A stretch of 53,609 bases of DNA from assembly GCA_020850475.1 (NCBI GenBank), contig JADZEO010000143.1, positions 1 to 53,609 on the forward strand, given 5' to 3'. Below are positions 6,666 through 35,032 of this stretch, in pieces; the first letter of the stretch is position 1; the number at the start of each line of letters is the position of its first letter. The stretch is from Bdellovibrionales bacterium. Its GTDB lineage: Bacteria; Bdellovibrionota; Bdellovibrionia; Bdellovibrionales; UBA1609. Position numbers and translations under genes: made by a program. Below the pieces are notes generated by a model, which worked only from the letters and a program-made list of their open reading frames with translations, was not told where the DNA came from and did not search any database.

Positions 6666-6808
6666 GGAGTGAATGAAACTTAGGTAATGCTTTGAATCAT
6701 GTCTCGCCTAGACCAGTTTTTTAAACGGACACTTCACTCTTGGTTGAGAGTCGTTAATACTTTTTGAGTTATGCAAAAACTGGCGATCCCAACAGTGAGG
6801 AATCTGAC

Positions 6809-8035
6809 ATGAAACCCAACTACTCGCGACGTGATTTTATCGAACTCATTGCCCGCACGGGAGTGCTCTATGCCGCTGCTCCCTGGTTCTCACCCCTGTT
6901 TGCTTGGGCCAATCAAGATCTCGGCTTTGACGCTTTCGTGGTTTCCGACGGGCCGACCGTTCAACCCGATCCCGACTGGAAGGGGTTCGCGCAAGGTGAC
7001 ATGCTCGCGACACCATCAGGCGCTTCCATCTGGGACCTTAAATTTAACTCGATCAAGAAATTTGACCTCAGCTTTCTCGCCCATAAGTTTCAACAAAACC
7101 CCAAACGGCCCAATCAATTAGTCGGGCCCGGCAAGCGCATTCGACGGATGGCAGTTTGTGACTTAAAAGCAGGAACCGTAAAAGATTTTGAGCCACCGGC
7201 AGGGGTTACTTTGTTTGGCCACGGATTTTTCGATGCGACAGGAAAACACTTTTATGCCACGGCCTTTGACCATCAAAAAGGCCTGGGCGTCATTCTCAAA
7301 TACACGACTGATGCCTTTAAACTTGTGAGCACGAGCCCCAGTTACGGCTTGTATCCCCATGATGCTCAAGTGATTCCCGAGCTCGGAGCCACGGTGTGTG
7401 CCGTTTTGAATGTCGGAGCCCTTGAAGGGGGCAAAAGTCGCTACCCCTTCGACCAAAAGACGAACACCAAGACTTCGGTGGCCGTGATTGACTACAGTGA
7501 CGGCAAACTGTTGCGCGAAATCTTTGTGCCCAATATGACCGGAGGACTCGCGCACTATGTGAGAGTCAACGGATCCCAAATTTTTGCTGTCGGTGCGGGC
7601 CGAACCGGTGGCAAGACCGATGTCCCCTCGGCAGCTTTAATCAATTTGCAAACTGGAGTGGCCGAAAACTTTCAAGCCCTGCCGGACTTTTCTCAAGTTC
7701 AAGGAGAGGCTAATAACCCCATTTATATTCCCGACCGCAATTCCATCATGATTAATTCTTACACCTCTTACGATCTGATCGAAATTGGCCTTAAAGAGAA
7801 GAAGATCATCAACCGGCTCACCGTTGCTGACGTGGCTTCGCATCTCTACCTTGGCGCCGGGCAGATGTTGCTCACCAAGAACAAAGCCGACACCCCGATG
7901 CTCGGAATTAATTTGCAAAAGAAGAATTCCGAATTTGGCGTGAACGACGGCAAAGGCAAGTCGCCGATGATTGCGAAGGGTTCGAGCTCACATATTAGCC
8001 CGATTTACCTTGCTCCCAAGGCCTCATCCACCTGA
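6809..8035 (+). CDS. DUF1513 protein with a twin-arginine-like signal
   Basis: 408 residues. N-terminus MKPNYSRRDFIELIARTG carries an S-R-R-x-F-I motif followed by a hydrophobic stretch, so export folded through the Tat system is likely. The body has repeated beta-strand blocks (RIRRMAVCDLKAGTVKDFEPPAG, GHGFFDATGKHFYATAFD, LYPHDAQVIPELGATVCAVLN) as in the DUF1513 beta-propeller-like family, often found beside iron-uptake genes, none of which are visible here. The start at 6809 is supported by GAGGAA 7 bases upstream. Its 3' end overlaps the convergent gene by 31 bases. Confidence 0.85.
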   Translation: MKPNYSRRDFIELIARTGVLYAAAPWFSPLFAWANQDLGFDAFVVSDGPTVQPDPDWKGFAQGDMLATPSGASIWDLKFNSIKKFDLSFLAHKFQQNPKRPNQLVGPGKRIRRMAVCDLKAGTVKDFEPPAGVTLFGHGFFDATGKHFYATAFDHQKGLGVILKYTTDAFKLVSTSPSYGLYPHDAQVIPELGATVCAVLNVGALEGGKSRYPFDQKTNTKTSVAVIDYSDGKLLREIFVPNMTGGLAHYVRVNGSQIFAVGAGRTGGKTDVPSAALINLQTGVAENFQALPDFSQVQGEANNPIYIPDRNSIMINSYTSYDLIEIGLKEKKIINRLTVADVASHLYLGAGQMLLTKNKADTPMLGINLQKKNSEFGVNDGKGKSPMIAKGSSSHISPIYLAPKASST

Positions 8036-8994
8036 AGTCGGTAAAGCTGAAAGGCGCCGGGGGCCAATCGGCCGTTGGCCGCTGGCACCGGAGGCGCAAA
8101 GACTGCGAGTTCGACTCCAGTCTGGCGAATGACTACGACAAAATTGTTCTCAACGCCAAACCAAACCCAAGCACCTGGCGAAAAGATATTTCCTGGAGTG
8201 AAATCTCTTACTTCAACAAGGTGTTGGTCCTCGCTCCGCTCTCGCTGGAGAGTCCGGGCACTGAGGTTTCGCAAATGTTCTTGAAAACGAAACACGAGGT
8301 GGCGACGGATCGACCAGGGCAAATGTGAGTTGAGCCATTCAGCGGCTGCCGATGGCCGATGTTCAAAGACCAGGTCCAAATCAGAGCGTCCCACCAGACC
8401 CCGTCCCTGAGGAGAGCTTCCCACCAAGTAGGCCACATCTTCAGCACCCAGAGCCGACTGCAAGCGGCCCGCGACTTTTTTGATATCGGACCAACGGTAA
8501 ACCGCCAAGTCCTGCGACGTCGCGGTCGTCTCCGTCATCACGGCTTGATATGCTTCGGCCACGCTCAATCCTTGCCCTAAAAATTGTCGGAAGCGCAGAT
8601 CCGGACGAAAAATCCGAGCGAACAAGAGATCGACCATTCGCCGGTTCGGCTCTTTTTTGAGCGTGCGATAATCGCGCATCAAGAGCTGGACGAGGGTCTG
8701 GCGCTCATGGGGATTGAGACTGTCAGCCGCCAAAAGAACCTTAGTATTAAAGGACCCATCTGGAAATCTTTGGTCTGTACGAATTTGCCCCACGATGCGG
8801 GTCCATTCCGCCAAGGACGCAGGTCGCTCGAAGGAAAGGCGATCTTGAGAGCTGGTTTTTACCTCTACCGCACACTCGCCCGCCTGACTCAACGCTGGTT
8901 GAACGAGCTGAAAAAACGCGCAAATTGTCGCTGCTAGCAAACCCTTTGACAGGTCTCTGAGGTTAGATTTTGCCCTTGTCGCTCCTAAGTTCAT
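8005..8994 (-). CDS. Exported protein with nucleotidyltransferase-fold signature
   Basis: 329 residues. A signal peptide is visible after the chosen start (LSKGLLAATICAFFQLVQPALSQA, before Gly-Glu-Cys). In the centre, VGSSPQGRGLVGRSDLDL fits the polymerase-beta-type nucleotidyltransferase rule hG[GS]-x9-13-Dh[DE]h exactly: Gly192-Ser193, then Asp205 and Asp207 after 11 residues. A third acidic residue may lie in the following 60 residues but I cannot assign it. If active, it would transfer a nucleotide to a target outside the cytoplasm, or in a prey cell. The ATG at 8994 is inferred from the signal peptide; the frame stays open to 9129, which would run into the divergent gene. Confidence 0.7.
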   Translation of the reverse strand: MNLGATRAKSNLRDLSKGLLAATICAFFQLVQPALSQAGECAVEVKTSSQDRLSFERPASLAEWTRIVGQIRTDQRFPDGSFNTKVLLAADSLNPHERQTLVQLLMRDYRTLKKEPNRRMVDLLFARIFRPDLRFRQFLGQGLSVAEAYQAVMTETTATSQDLAVYRWSDIKKVAGRLQSALGAEDVAYLVGSSPQGRGLVGRSDLDLVFEHRPSAAAEWLNSHLPWSIRRHLVFRFQEHLRNLSARTLQRERSEDQHLVEVRDFTPGNIFSPGAWVWFGVENNFVVVIRQTGVELAVFAPPVPAANGRLAPGAFQLYRLQVDEALGAR

Positions 8995-14063: not shown

Positions 14064-16190
14064 ATGTGCGGTACGCGCGGTCTCTCGATGATTAGCCGAG
14101 TTTTATCTATATTAATATTGTCTCTCTGGTCCTTCAGCGCAATAGCGCAAACTCCACGCGAGCAGTTTAAAGATTATCCGACCGGCCTCGACAAGGCCGA
14201 GATGGATCGGGTCAACGCCCGCAATAAATTCAAAATCACTCGGGTCAAACCCAATGACCTCGCTCTCCAAAGAAAAAATGACGAACTGACCCAACAAGGT
14301 CGGTCTCTCATTGATCGACGGACCGCGGTTGACCGCGAAAACGAAATCACCATGGTGCCTGTCAGTGGCGGAGCGGACTCTTCGTCGTCACTTCAAGGTG
14401 AGGTCGTGACGGCCTTGGCGACTGGAGTCGATAACTCCACTCTCAGTGCCTTTCCGCCGATCGGCAATCAAGGCGGAGAGGGCTCCTGCTTTCCGTTCAA
14501 TGTTACCTATTATTTGATGAGCCATGAAACCTGCTTGGTGCGGGGCTGTAACAATAAATCAGGCGACCTAACGAACATCTTTTCTCCGCGCTGGATTTAC
14601 AACCAAGTCAACCAAGGGGCCAATCTCGGTTGCTGCCAAGGAAAACTTTGGGAAGTGCTGGAGAACCACGGAGCGCCCAATCTTTATCAACTTCCTTATA
14701 TTTCAGGCGACTACCGCACCTGGGACCTCAACACCAACAATTGGATTTCAGCCCTTTCAAATCGCATGAATCGATTTGCGCCAATCAACATCACCACTGG
14801 CACCGGAGTTTCCAACCTCAAACAGTGGTTGGCCAACGGTCACGTGGCGATGGTGGGAACTTACATCCACTCATTCATTTACGTTAAGGTGGGTACCAAT
14901 CCCAGTGCCGCGAGCCCTTATGCCGGGCAATGGGTGGTTTCATATCTAAACGGCACCTCGGGCGGGCACGCGATGACAGTTGCTGGTTACGATGACAATG
15001 TTTGGGTCGATATCAATAACAACGGCTCAGTCGATGCAAATGAGCTCGGGGCTTTCAAAGTAGTCAACTCGTGGGGAACTGGGTATTCCAATGGCGGTTG
15101 GGTGTGGGTTTCCTACGACGCCTTTAAATCAGTCACCGCGGTGGCGGGCGGACCGTCATCAGGACGAGTCGCATTTACCCAAGACGGTAACGCTTGGACG
15201 AGCACCGCCAAGCTTTCCTACACACCGAAAATTCTCGCGCAATTTACTGTCAACCATGGTCTACGAAACCAACTTGGCCTCAACATTGGAACCTCGTCTA
15301 CTACTGCGACAAGTCCGAGTGCGCTATGGAATCCCGCCATGATTCAGTTTCAAGGGGGTGCCATGGGCTTTGACGGCTCTTCTAACGCCGTCGATGGAAC
15401 TTTTGTTTTTGATTTTAGTGACCTGGTTCCCGCGGGTTCGAGCTCACTCAAGTATTACTTCCAAATGACGGACAACACCTCGGGCAGTCCGGCAGTCCTC
15501 AAAGACTTTCGCATCATCGACGTGGCCCGCGGCCAAACCATCGTTTACAACGGATCGCTTCCCGTCCAGGCCGATGCGAGCACCTCGCGCGTGAGCGTCT
15601 CTTACAGCTTCACTGACGGCAACATCCCTCCAGTCGCGATTATCAGTGGTTCGTCCCAGACCAGCGGATCTTCAGTGCTCGCCGAATTTGACGGCAGTGG
15701 CTCCTATGACCCAGACGGCTCCATTGCGGGCTACTCCTGGAATTTCGGCGATGGCACCTCGCAATTAGGTAATTCCACGGCCTCGCACACCTACACTCGG
15801 GCCGGCAACTTCACTGCCACCTTGACCGTCACTGACAACAAAGGGGCGACCGGAAGCGCAAGTTACGTCGTGTCAATACCTGATACCGAGGCCCCCACGG
15901 CTCCAACAAACTTGGCCGCTCAAATCGTTACAACTTCTAGCCGGGGAAAGAGCAAAAAAGGCACGACCACAACCAGCGTAAAGCTCACTTGGACAGCTGC
16001 GGTTGACAACGTAGGCGTCGCAAAATATTTGATTTTCCGAAATGGCACTTTACTCACTTCCACCACCTCTACGTCGTTGACCGACTCATCGACCGCTGCG
16101 GGCGGGGGAAGCTACAGCTACACAGTGATCGCAGTCGATGCGGCCGGCAACCAATCTGCCAGCAGTAACGTGGCGACCATTAGCCGATAA
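14064..16190 (+). CDS. Secreted papain-family (C1A) peptidase with PKD and Fn3 domains
   Basis: 708 residues. Signal peptide about residues 1-29 (hydrophobic core SILILSLWSFSAIA), a propeptide-like basic region to about 125, then a papain domain: Gln136 and Cys142 in NQGGEGSCFPFN, His302 in GGHAMTVAGYDD, Asn335 in VVNSWG. Between His and Asn sits DINNNGSVDANE (316-327), an EF-hand/dockerin-like calcium loop. A PKD domain (about 525-610, WNFGDGT and VTDNKGATGSA) and a fibronectin type III domain (about 615-708) follow, as in secreted enzymes that bind surfaces. The GGGAG 8 bases before 14064 supports this start over the internal ATG at 14088. A hydrolytic role on host or prey protein is an inference. 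Confidence 0.9.
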   Translation: MCGTRGLSMISRVLSILILSLWSFSAIAQTPREQFKDYPTGLDKAEMDRVNARNKFKITRVKPNDLALQRKNDELTQQGRSLIDRRTAVDRENEITMVPVSGGADSSSSLQGEVVTALATGVDNSTLSAFPPIGNQGGEGSCFPFNVTYYLMSHETCLVRGCNNKSGDLTNIFSPRWIYNQVNQGANLGCCQGKLWEVLENHGAPNLYQLPYISGDYRTWDLNTNNWISALSNRMNRFAPINITTGTGVSNLKQWLANGHVAMVGTYIHSFIYVKVGTNPSAASPYAGQWVVSYLNGTSGGHAMTVAGYDDNVWVDINNNGSVDANELGAFKVVNSWGTGYSNGGWVWVSYDAFKSVTAVAGGPSSGRVAFTQDGNAWTSTAKLSYTPKILAQFTVNHGLRNQLGLNIGTSSTTATSPSALWNPAMIQFQGGAMGFDGSSNAVDGTFVFDFSDLVPAGSSSLKYYFQMTDNTSGSPAVLKDFRIIDVARGQTIVYNGSLPVQADASTSRVSVSYSFTDGNIPPVAIISGSSQTSGSSVLAEFDGSGSYDPDGSIAGYSWNFGDGTSQLGNSTASHTYTRAGNFTATLTVTDNKGATGSASYVVSIPDTEAPTAPTNLAAQIVTTSSRGKSKKGTTTTSVKLTWTAAVDNVGVAKYLIFRNGTLLTSTTSTSLTDSSTAAGGGSYSYTVIAVDAAGNQSASSNVATISR

Positions 16191-22182: not shown

Positions 22183-22390
22183 TTACTTCGGCAGATCTCT
22201 GTTTATCCTCAAGGTTCTCGCTCTCAATTTCGCAAGCAGCCTTGTAGGCCTCGGTACGAGAAATAGGGTTGCCTGTCTGCATGTGCATATCATAAAGGAA
22301 TTTGGATTGAGTCAATGGGTCCATAGAGTCATACGGATTGCTCTTTTTATGTGCCTTGTCCTCAAGCGGTTTGGCCTCTCTTCGCTTCAT
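22160..22390 (-). CDS. Small hypothetical protein, third gene of nucleotidyltransferase operon
   Basis: 76 residues, mostly charged and helical (MKRREAKPLEDKAHKKSN...). I recognise no family. The ATG at 22390 overlaps the nucleotidyltransferase stop in an ATGA, with GGGGA upstream, so translation is coupled. Its last eight or so codons are read from the antisense of the integrase remnant, so the natural C-terminus may have been changed by the insertion history. It could be a partner of the transferase (for example an antitoxin); this is inference. Confidence 0.6.
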   Translation of the reverse strand: MKRREAKPLEDKAHKKSNPYDSMDPLTQSKFLYDMHMQTGNPISRTEAYKAACEIESENLEDKQRSAEVTTSLIFS

Positions 22391-22941
22391 ATTTTTCCCC
22401 ATTCAGTCTTGAGGCCCAGCTTCTCGACCCAAAGTTGCAAGTATTCATCATCAACTTTTGAACCCGCCAGGATTTCACGAATATCTGTGAGATGCTTCTC
22501 TGCTCCACCCTCACGGTAGTAATCAAGTTTCTTGAGAATGATGTTTTCTGGGGCGGCGACATAGACTTCAAATTGAGGCAAGATTTCGACTTTGGCGCGC
22601 CGACTAAACTCTGACTGATGATATTCAGTGTCTTTATACAGAACAATGTCGATCTTGATCCCTGACTGTTGGTGAATCAGGTTGAAGGAGCCACGGCGAA
22701 CGACTTCATCCTTTAGAACCTCAATCGGTGGACAATAGTAATCTTCAAGCGGGAAAATCTGAGTAACTCTTTGAACCAAGCTCGGATGGAGTTGCACGAC
22801 AAGATCAACGTCTTTCGTGAAACGGGGGCGACCGTAGTACATGGAGGCCAATGAGCCCACTAAGAAGTAGGGGATATTTTCCTTATCAAGCCGAACAGCT
22901 ACGTCACGAAGCACTTCAAGAGGGCCTGGTACTTTGGTCAA
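22387..22941 (-). CDS. Nucleotidyltransferase, AbiEii/DUF6036-like
   Basis: 184 residues, cytoplasmic. N-terminal YFLVGSLASMYYGRPRFTKDVDLVV has the nucleotidyltransferase signature Gly29-Ser30 then Asp44-x-Asp46. The C-terminal PENIILKKLDYYREGGAEKHLTDIREIL is typical of DUF6036/AbiEii-type proteins, several of which act as toxins that modify tRNA or other targets. The start is TTG at 22941, overlapping the stop of the previous small gene (TTGA), with AGAGGA about 6 bases upstream. The gene sits between two small genes on a tRNA-linked island. A toxin-antitoxin or defence role is plausible, not shown. Confidence 0.8.
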   Translation of the reverse strand: MTKVPGPLEVLRDVAVRLDKENIPYFLVGSLASMYYGRPRFTKDVDLVVQLHPSLVQRVTQIFPLEDYYCPPIEVLKDEVVRRGSFNLIHQQSGIKIDIVLYKDTEYHQSEFSRRAKVEILPQFEVYVAAPENIILKKLDYYREGGAEKHLTDIREILAGSKVDDEYLQLWVEKLGLKTEWGKI

Positions 22942-33022: not shown

Positions 33023-35032
33023 TTAGCGGATGTTACGTCCGCGGGGATTAACTCCGGGCGGAGTGGTCCCACCACCTGGATTGGTTCCAGGGTAAGGCAG
33101 AATGTCAACTTGGCCGGGCATACCCGGCATCATCGAGCCGGGATAGTACCCACCACCATAGCCACCCATCGAAATCATCTGAATCTGCATCTGAATTCGA
33201 TAGAGTTCCTGCTGGAGATTGGCCACCGTTTGGTATCGGGCCATCTGTTGTTGTTGAGCCTGCATCTGCTGAGCCATGTAGACTTGCATTTGCTGCATAT
33301 ACATTTGCTGCATCTGCATTTGCATTTGTCCACCCATCATACCCATCATGCCTTGCATACCCATCATACCCATCATGCCGGGCATTCCCATCATTCCGGG
33401 CATACCCATCATGCCCATCATTCCAGGCATTCCCATCATGCCTTGCATACCCATCATACCCATCATTCCGGGCATTCCCATCATGCCAGGCATACCCATC
33501 ATGCCCATCATTCCGGGCATTCCCATCATGCCAGGCATACCCATCATGCCCATCATTCCAGGCATTCCCATAACGCCCATCATTCCCATCATACCGGGCA
33601 TACCCATCATTCCCATCATGCCGGGCATTCCCATCATGCCCATGGAGCCCATCATGCCAGGCCATCCCATGACGCCCATCATGCCCATCATGCCCATAGA
33701 GCCCATCATACCCATGCCGGGGAAGCCCATACCGGGCCACATTCCTCCACCGCCCCAAGGACCGGGCCATCCCCATGGTCCCATTCCTGGCATGTAGAGC
33801 CCACCGCCAATGCCCAAGCCTCCACCCATCCACGGAGGATATCCAAACGGACCACCCAATCCGCCATAGAGACCAAGGCCGCCCATCATACCCATCGGAC
33901 CAGCGCCAAAACCTCCACCAAAGGCACCGCCGCCGCAGCCAAAGCCGCCGTTGACGCCACCTCCGAGCACTCCATAGAGTCCGTTCATCAAGAACGGGTA
34001 GCCAATGGACGCGGTCATATATGGATTGGTCGGCCAACCCAAGCGTGAGTTTTGATCAGTGGCATACTTGGCGCCCTTGTAAGCCAGGACTCCACCCAAT
34101 ACACCCAAACCGATAGAACCAATCGTTTCCCACATCGAAGGTGCACGCGCATAACCACGGCGACGCGACTCACACCAGGGACACCAAGCCTCGGAGTTTT
34201 CATCCCCGAGAGAGTCTTGGTATTTCGACTGCAAGCGATCACGTTCGCGATCCAACGTGCGGTCGAACTCACGTAAGTCTTCTTTCATCTCGGCCAATTC
34301 GCTGGCCAAGGTGGTAAATTCCTCTGAGGCCTCGTAGTAATCTTGGATTGCCGCCTTACAATCGAGCTTATGCTCAACTGTGGCGGAACTCTTAATAAAC
34401 TGACTGGTACAAATATCAGCATTTACCGCGCCGCTATCCAAAACATAGTCGGGCCACCAGTTCGAGTATTCAACGGGATCACAACCTGCAGTTTGACCAG
34501 GATTACAATTGCCGATTTTGCCATCACCATTCACATCGTGATTAACGGCAATGCAAAAGATCGAAGCCGGAGGGTAATTTCCTGCTCCACCACCACCGAC
34601 CTGACGTCCCACCGCCCGGCTTGCTCGGGTTTGATCCGAACGCGATAGACCTGCGGATCCCACCGCCGTCACGTTGCCAGGATTACACTCAGAGGCATAA
34701 CTGCCGGGTCCCCGCTCGCGATCACCCATGTGCTCAAGCACGGCGCTCGCTGCCGGTGACTGCAAGGTCTTGCGAATGGCCCGCTCGTAACCTTTCATGC
34801 GATTACGAAGCTCATCCTGCCGCTTCTTTTTACGATCGTAGTTCTTTTGCTTCTGCTCTTTCATTCGCTTGATGTTGCGAATTCCATCGTCGTCGTCGAC
34901 CGACCCTTCGGCAGAGCCGTAATCATACGGACAAGCTTGAGCTCCACCCCATACTCCCGCGCCCCATTGGGCCTGGGCCGTATTCGAAATCACAAAACTT
35001 GCCATTACTAACGTGAGGACAAGTCGTCTCAT
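33023..35032 (-). CDS. Exported Met/Gly/Pro-repeat protein
   Basis: 669 residues. Signal peptide MRRLVLTLVMASFVISNTAQA. Residues 30-300 are a cysteine-containing region with an EF-hand-like loop DVNGDGKIGNC (166-176), a charged coiled-coil (about 225-275) and CPWC (284-287); 303-318 is hydrophobic. Then a Gly-rich part and a long MGM/PGMMG repeat (about 430-570), a Gln/Met part (QMQMQMQQMYMQQMQ) and a Gly/Tyr tail. I recognise no family. Possible metal (copper/silver) binding through thioether groups, or a structural/adhesive role, are guesses. ATG 35032 has GAGGAG 9 bases upstream. Confidence 0.85.
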   Translation of the reverse strand: MRRLVLTLVMASFVISNTAQAQWGAGVWGGAQACPYDYGSAEGSVDDDDGIRNIKRMKEQKQKNYDRKKKRQDELRNRMKGYERAIRKTLQSPAASAVLEHMGDRERGPGSYASECNPGNVTAVGSAGLSRSDQTRASRAVGRQVGGGGAGNYPPASIFCIAVNHDVNGDGKIGNCNPGQTAGCDPVEYSNWWPDYVLDSGAVNADICTSQFIKSSATVEHKLDCKAAIQDYYEASEEFTTLASELAEMKEDLREFDRTLDRERDRLQSKYQDSLGDENSEAWCPWCESRRRGYARAPSMWETIGSIGLGVLGGVLAYKGAKYATDQNSRLGWPTNPYMTASIGYPFLMNGLYGVLGGGVNGGFGCGGGAFGGGFGAGPMGMMGGLGLYGGLGGPFGYPPWMGGGLGIGGGLYMPGMGPWGWPGPWGGGGMWPGMGFPGMGMMGSMGMMGMMGVMGWPGMMGSMGMMGMPGMMGMMGMPGMMGMMGVMGMPGMMGMMGMPGMMGMPGMMGMMGMPGMMGMPGMMGMMGMQGMMGMPGMMGMMGMPGMMGMPGMMGMMGMQGMMGMMGGQMQMQMQQMYMQQMQVYMAQQMQAQQQQMARYQTVANLQQELYRIQMQIQMISMGGYGGGYYPGSMMPGMPGQVDILPYPGTNPGGGTTPPGVNPRGRNIR
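33325..33720 (-). repeat. 45-bp higher-order repeat coding for MGM/PGMMG
   Basis: Minus-strand coding of MGMPGMMGMPGMMGM units, 15 residues (45 bases) per higher-order unit, themselves built from 9- and 12-base pieces (GGCATNCCCATCATGCC-type on the plus strand). Copies are near-identical at DNA level, so expansion by slippage is recent. All frames stay open through the repeat and give long shadow reading frames on the plus strand. Confidence 0.92.

Follow-up and report, generated by a model that had tools for sequence, protein, structure and literature searches.

A patchily distributed Bdellovibrionota family of predicted exported proteins with a probable nucleotidyltransferase active site

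Introduction

Could a bacterium of the order Bdellovibrionales export a nucleotidyltransferase, and where would such an enzyme act? The question is raised by a gene in a 53,609-nucleotide stretch of DNA from contig JADZEO010000143.1 (hereafter the window, to which the positions below refer), whose product (the target) had been described in a sequence-only reading as an exported protein with a complete nucleotidyltransferase signature that might act inside prey. Little ATP is normally available beyond the cytoplasm. To our knowledge, nucleotidyltransferases are always either cytoplasmic or injected by dedicated machines. The features of the gene are collected in Table 1.

Table 1. Target gene and features of its product, in window coordinates
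Feature	Position	Strand	Basis
CDS, predicted exported nucleotidyltransferase-fold protein, 329 aa; start ATG at 8994	8005..8994	-	ORF reading and family conservation
Predicted Sec signal sequence, residues 1-38, cleavage SQA/GEC	8881..8994	-	Hydropathy and inspection by eye
Cys41, sole cysteine of the mature protein, just past predicted cleavage	8872..8874	-	Sequence; family-conserved
Helical domain, residues 60-181, with invariant Arg119 and near-invariant Asp122	8452..8817	-	Alignment, model
Arg119 codon	8638-8640	-	
Nucleotidyltransferase signature VGS-x11-DLDL, residues 191-208	8371..8424	-	Sequence and 21-row alignment
D205 codon	8380-8382	-	
D207 codon	8374-8376	-	
Glu261, candidate third metal ligand	8212..8214	-	Alignment; predicted strand in a relative's model
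C-terminal two-strand segment, residues 278-303, family G-x-x-N-P ... h-x-V-F block	8086..8163	-	Alignment, model

Results

Predicted export and the N-terminal cysteine

The N-terminus of the target contains Lys/Arg residues as far as residue 17, followed by a hydrophobic stretch at residues 19-31 (Kyte-Doolittle 2.1 over 12 residues) and a likely cleavage site between residues 38 and 39; the n-region, the h-region, and a signal-peptidase-like site are thus all present, and hydropathy and inspection agree on the signal peptide that had been claimed. In-frame start codons lie at residues -44, -35, 1, 19, 35, and 61, a protein begun at any of the first four would retain the hydrophobic segment, and no cytoplasmic start that would remove the signal peptide was indicated. 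A signal-like hydrophobic segment also stands at the start of every family member (described below) with an intact 5' end; the members without one (L006, L071, L072, and one L078 frame) are gapped, located at a contig end, or broken in frame. A mis-called start is very unlikely because the segment has been kept across such a divergent set, and predicted export is a trait of the whole family, not a start-codon error.

A cysteine follows shortly after the predicted cleavage site in nearly every family member, including all of those with an intact 5' end. It is seen in the target and in L007-L013, L018, L029-L039, L069, and L073-L079, usually within C-x-x-[VIL]-[FLY], and most members have no other cysteine in the mature protein. 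The lone cysteine could form an intermolecular disulphide. A lipoprotein reading was rejected, as no lipobox precedes the cysteine, and so was the idea that C-x-x-[VIL]-F is a genome-wide export tag: of 99 signal-like ORFs in ∼0.35 Mb of this genome, 2 fit the pattern loosely, but neither is truly like it. Because no other signal-like ORF in this ∼0.35 Mb matches convincingly, the N-terminal cysteine pattern looks family-specific. The gene that follows one relative (L037:2121-3227) encodes a C-terminal end, ...PSRCSKIFAL, that is like the C-x-x-I-F of the family, possibly by coincidence.

A divergent family in Bdellovibrionota

When used alone, the target sequence gave no match in Pfam, NCBIfam, PADLOC, or the PDB, nothing in the genome_contigs collection, no second copy in its own genome, and nothing in viral contigs and phages; a relative used as query likewise gave nothing in plasmids. 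A search of 99 related genomes yielded one further place, in G091, where the best-matching part falls within the latter half of an exported ORF of 786 aa with two copies of the domain. With one G091 domain copy as query, further genes were found over the order, and profiles built from them matched in 21 of its 141 genomes; the weakest of these matches, L040 at E 1e-4, was not taken into the family, being a nucleotidyltransferase of the ordinary cytoplasmic kind. At E 1e-5, a profile search found the family in 31 of 369 Bdellovibrionota genomes. Within the target's own taxonomic family, G027 and G004 are the only other genomes that carry a member, and counterparts of two family loci occur in Bdellovibrio sp. 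UBA4095 and a Bdellovibrionaceae bacterium. This sparse distribution argues that the family is not a core predation gene. Tandem-duplicated relatives were also encountered (L003:4664-7024, L005:1327-3570, and L006).

Membership of the target was assessed with a profile from which it had been left out, so as to avoid circularity (database size set to 4000). With this profile, residues 84-303 of the target were recovered at E 1.5e-18, and there was no match to the reversed target or to 20 shuffled versions of it. A model built without both the L018 group and the target recovered L018 at E 3.5e-17. By profile homology, the target is therefore a member of a divergent, unnamed family that is patchily spread in Bdellovibrionota. 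The earlier remark that it has no obvious cytoplasmic relatives holds in that the target matches no database family and its recognizable relatives are exported too, as predicted from their N-termini.

Signature, third acid, and selection

Residues 191-208 of the target, VGSSPQGRGLVGRSDLDL, match hG[GS]-x11-DhDh exactly, with G192, S193, D205, and D207 all as the sequence-only reading had them. The motif is not decisive by itself because shuffled copies of the target contain it at ∼0.5%: hG[GS]x9-13Dh[DE]h was found in 1000 of 200,000 shuffles and its x11 form in 190 of 200,000, and with ∼4,000 genes a genome would be expected to contain ∼20 chance instances of the x9-13 form. What raises it above chance is that G-S, D-x-D, and the signal sequence are conserved across a divergent family. 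Patterns could not be scanned in the first family alignment because of its diversity; in a 21-row alignment, R119, G192, S193, D205, and D207 are invariant, with G-S and D-x-D kept in domains at 13 to 25% identity to the target.

As to a third acidic residue, Glu261 of the target aligns with Glu in its closest relatives, and this position falls on predicted strand 238-243 of the model of relative L048, the expected place of a third metal ligand. From the alignment, and from models whose 3D geometry is not reliable, Glu261 is probably the third acid of the target. In the 21-row alignment this acid is absent from the L018/L031 subgroup. Some repeat copies (in L005, L006, and L074) have lost G-S or D-x-D; because of these degenerate copies and the missing acid in L018/L031, catalysis is not universal in the family. 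The second copies in L005 and L006 lack G-S and one Asp (GRFPNGRAEMDDLSIE), which suggests one catalytic and one non-catalytic half.

The relatives are under purifying selection. In close pairs, dN/dS is far below 1, at about 0.1 (L008/L011), 0.007 (L043/L044), and 0.12 (L038/L039); the value for L018/L043 is 0.045 at a dS already of 2.1. The remaining pairs are saturated at silent sites, and dN/dS was read from close pairs only.

Fold assignment

Among the relatives, L018 exceeds Pfam's own cut-offs for PF18765 Polbeta (27.6 versus 26.9 bits) and PF01909 NTP_transf_2 (24.5 versus 21). PF01909 was matched by 8 of 21 members and PF18765 by 6 of 21 (E up to 1), and the MntA model NF047752 was matched by 7 of 21 (best 1.4e-6). 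The family profile searched against the PDB placed minimal nucleotidyltransferases (MNTs) first, namely 1ylq (0.0011) and 1no5 (0.0023), aligned over the motif. Sequence homology through the family and the Pfam matches of L018 thus supports the nucleotidyltransferase identity that had been claimed for the target; its link to the DNA polymerase beta superfamily is indirect, running from the target to the family, from the family to L018, and from L018 to the Pfam cut-offs.

Structure prediction, used to look for the palm fold with its mixed beta sheet, pointed weakly in the same direction. The AF2 model of the target and the model of L048 each rest on three sequences. With the target model, which is poor (pLDDT 58, pTM 0.63, motif loop under 50), the top VIA match was MNT 1no5 (Z 4.1, 89 residues, rmsd 3.2); CCA-adding enzymes and one MNT antitoxin ranked lower. 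With the L048 model (pLDDT 69), the top two Foldseek entries were 1no5 chains (prob 0.77-0.87), followed by many MNT and TUTase entries, and VIA gave 1no5 at Z 5.2, tied with the KH domains of ribosomal S3 and Era. Foldseek gave no hit below 1e-3 for either model. Because the models are of low confidence and the VIA Z scores only 4-5, it is sequence homology that carries the fold claim, and structure supports it weakly. Structure prediction had also been named as the step that could overturn the assignment; it indicated no different fold, the target model itself being weak. The Fic motif HxFx[DE]GNGRxxR is absent from the target sequence, which has no Pfam Fic match either. A PN-RR-D-RPDL-F pattern in the helical domain is common to the target and its closest relatives.

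Genomic context

The 5' neighbor of the target is an exported S9-type hydrolase gene in divergent orientation, and a DUF1513 gene (window 6764-8035, +) converges on it with an overlap of ∼30 bases at the target 3' end. The DUF1513 protein has a twin-arginine-like N-terminus (SRRDFIEL). No HEPN or AbiEi gene adjoins the target. In the relatives' loci that were read, the flanking genes vary with no common neighbor, and the family genes are solitary and unlinked to secretion systems. Elsewhere in the window, 33023-35032 (-) encodes an exported protein in which Met and Gly dominate a long repeat (GMMGMPGMMGM...), with long His-rich and Ile/Pro-rich open frames on the opposite strand as a by-product, and 14064-16190 (+) encodes an exported 708-aa protein that by eye resembles a peptidase of the papain type and has what look like PKD and FnIII-like repeats. 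As to predator status, the matches of three GHMP-type kinases to mevalonate kinase stay below the cut-off and are not counted as evidence.

Discussion

We favor, with a probability of roughly 0.6, the reading that the target is an exported, probably catalytic nucleotidyltransferase from a patchy Bdellovibrionota family that has kept both export and the active site. The protein would be Sec-exported, with a helical domain in its N-terminal part and, C-terminal to it, a minimal nucleotidyltransferase domain that belongs to the DNA polymerase beta superfamily. Catalysis, nucleotide, substrate, and prey delivery we infer as follows. D205, D207, and probably E261 would bind Mg-NTP, and the nucleotide would pass to a substrate located beyond the producer's own cytoplasm; if the bacterium lives in or on prey, the reaction would most naturally take place in the prey or the bdelloplast, with prey ATP at hand.

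The strongest alternative is an exported pseudo-enzyme, in which the fold is kept as a module that binds nucleotide, RNA, or protein in the envelope or the extracellular space and has no transferase activity. The L018/L031 subgroup without a third acid, the degenerate copies in L005, L006, and L074, and the scarcity of ATP outside the cytoplasm are all in keeping with such a protein, but against it stand the invariance of G-S and D-x-D in 21 domains of such low identity to the target and the Glu at the third position in the target and its nearest relatives; we consider it unlikely, although worth serious attention. A periplasmic enzyme that serves the producer itself, unrelated to prey and acting on a small molecule (with an antibiotic-type logic) or an envelope component, appears less credible still. 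The solitary genes without secretion-system linkage are consistent with it, as are the AadA-type aminoglycoside nucleotidyltransferases among the weak structural matches of the L048 model; however, the ANT families reached only E 0.05-0.13, none above threshold, and such an enzyme would likewise depend on NTPs from somewhere beyond the cytoplasm. That the motif arose by chance in an unrelated exported helical protein might be entertained from its frequency in shuffled sequences, the lack of any family match to the target alone, and the weak target model, but the leave-one-out homology strongly disfavors it and the conserved motif and above-cut-off scores of L018 speak against it, so that we regard it as highly improbable. 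To half of a toxin-antitoxin pair, of the MntA-HepT (type VII) or AbiE type, we give almost no credence despite the seven MntA-model matches: the signal-like sequence in all intact members (by hydropathy) is at odds with a cytoplasmic location, the neighbors of the target are an S9-type hydrolase and DUF1513 and those of its relatives differ, and the MntA-HepT module was rejected and its mode of action judged unfit because no adjacent HEPN partner gene exists.

Returning to an exported, probably catalytic enzyme, its action in prey is plausible by analogy, because exported Bdellovibrio proteins reach prey and superfamily members serve as delivered effectors elsewhere. Exported Bdellovibrio proteins have been found inside prey, and secreted proteins appear sufficient for prey killing, with the killers among them still open (PMC11003981). 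An injected polymerase-beta-type nucleotidyltransferase effector is known in DrrA (PMC8097203), and RelA/SpoT-type toxins are delivered nucleotidyltransferase-type toxins (PMC3482391). A literature search on Bdellovibrio and nucleotidyltransferases found no relevant paper. The objection from ATP scarcity is weaker for an organism that grows inside killed prey. The bolder proposal, that Bdellovibrio-like predators release Sec-exported nucleotidyltransferases which nucleotidylate prey proteins or RNA with prey ATP and so shut down prey metabolism during invasion, is tentative and, in our estimate, more doubtful than not by a good way. An exported family with the active-site signature of nucleotide transfer is a concrete candidate for Bdellovibrio prey killing that can be tested by knock-out and, if the proposal is true, nucleotidyltransferases would extend into the Sec-exported repertoire.

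Among known systems, the family's best sequence and structure matches are the minimal nucleotidyltransferases, including MntA (PF01909, NF047752; 1no5, 1ylq, 8xeo), which share with the target the hGS...D-x-D motif and, by low-confidence prediction, the order of strands in the catalytic core. The target differs from them in being exported by prediction, in its fused N-terminal helical domain, in its lack of a HEPN partner, and in its single N-terminal cysteine. The window also encodes an AbiEii-type nucleotidyltransferase (22387-22941, -; PF08843, 4.9e-7) that has hGS...D-x-D like the target; in contrast to it, this protein lacks a signal sequence and is recognizable by Pfam, and it is not detectably related to the target, whose own-genome search did not find it. 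The adenylyltransferase domain of Legionella DrrA/SidM is, by description, like the proposed target in being polymerase-beta-type, with Gly-x11-Asp-x-Asp plus a further acid, and in acting outside the producing bacterium (PMC8097203). Unlike the target, DrrA/SidM has type IV delivery, not a Sec signal, and its substrate is a eukaryotic Rab GTPase. The RelA/SpoT-type toxin domains have a catalytic motif that differs from that of the target, and they are fused to polymorphic-toxin delivery modules, which are absent from the target. Found in polymorphic toxins, these domains have a related nucleotidyltransferase-like fold that is used as a delivered toxin (PMC3482391). Set beside these systems, the target is new as an exported form, with a helical N-domain and a single cysteine, within a known superfamily.
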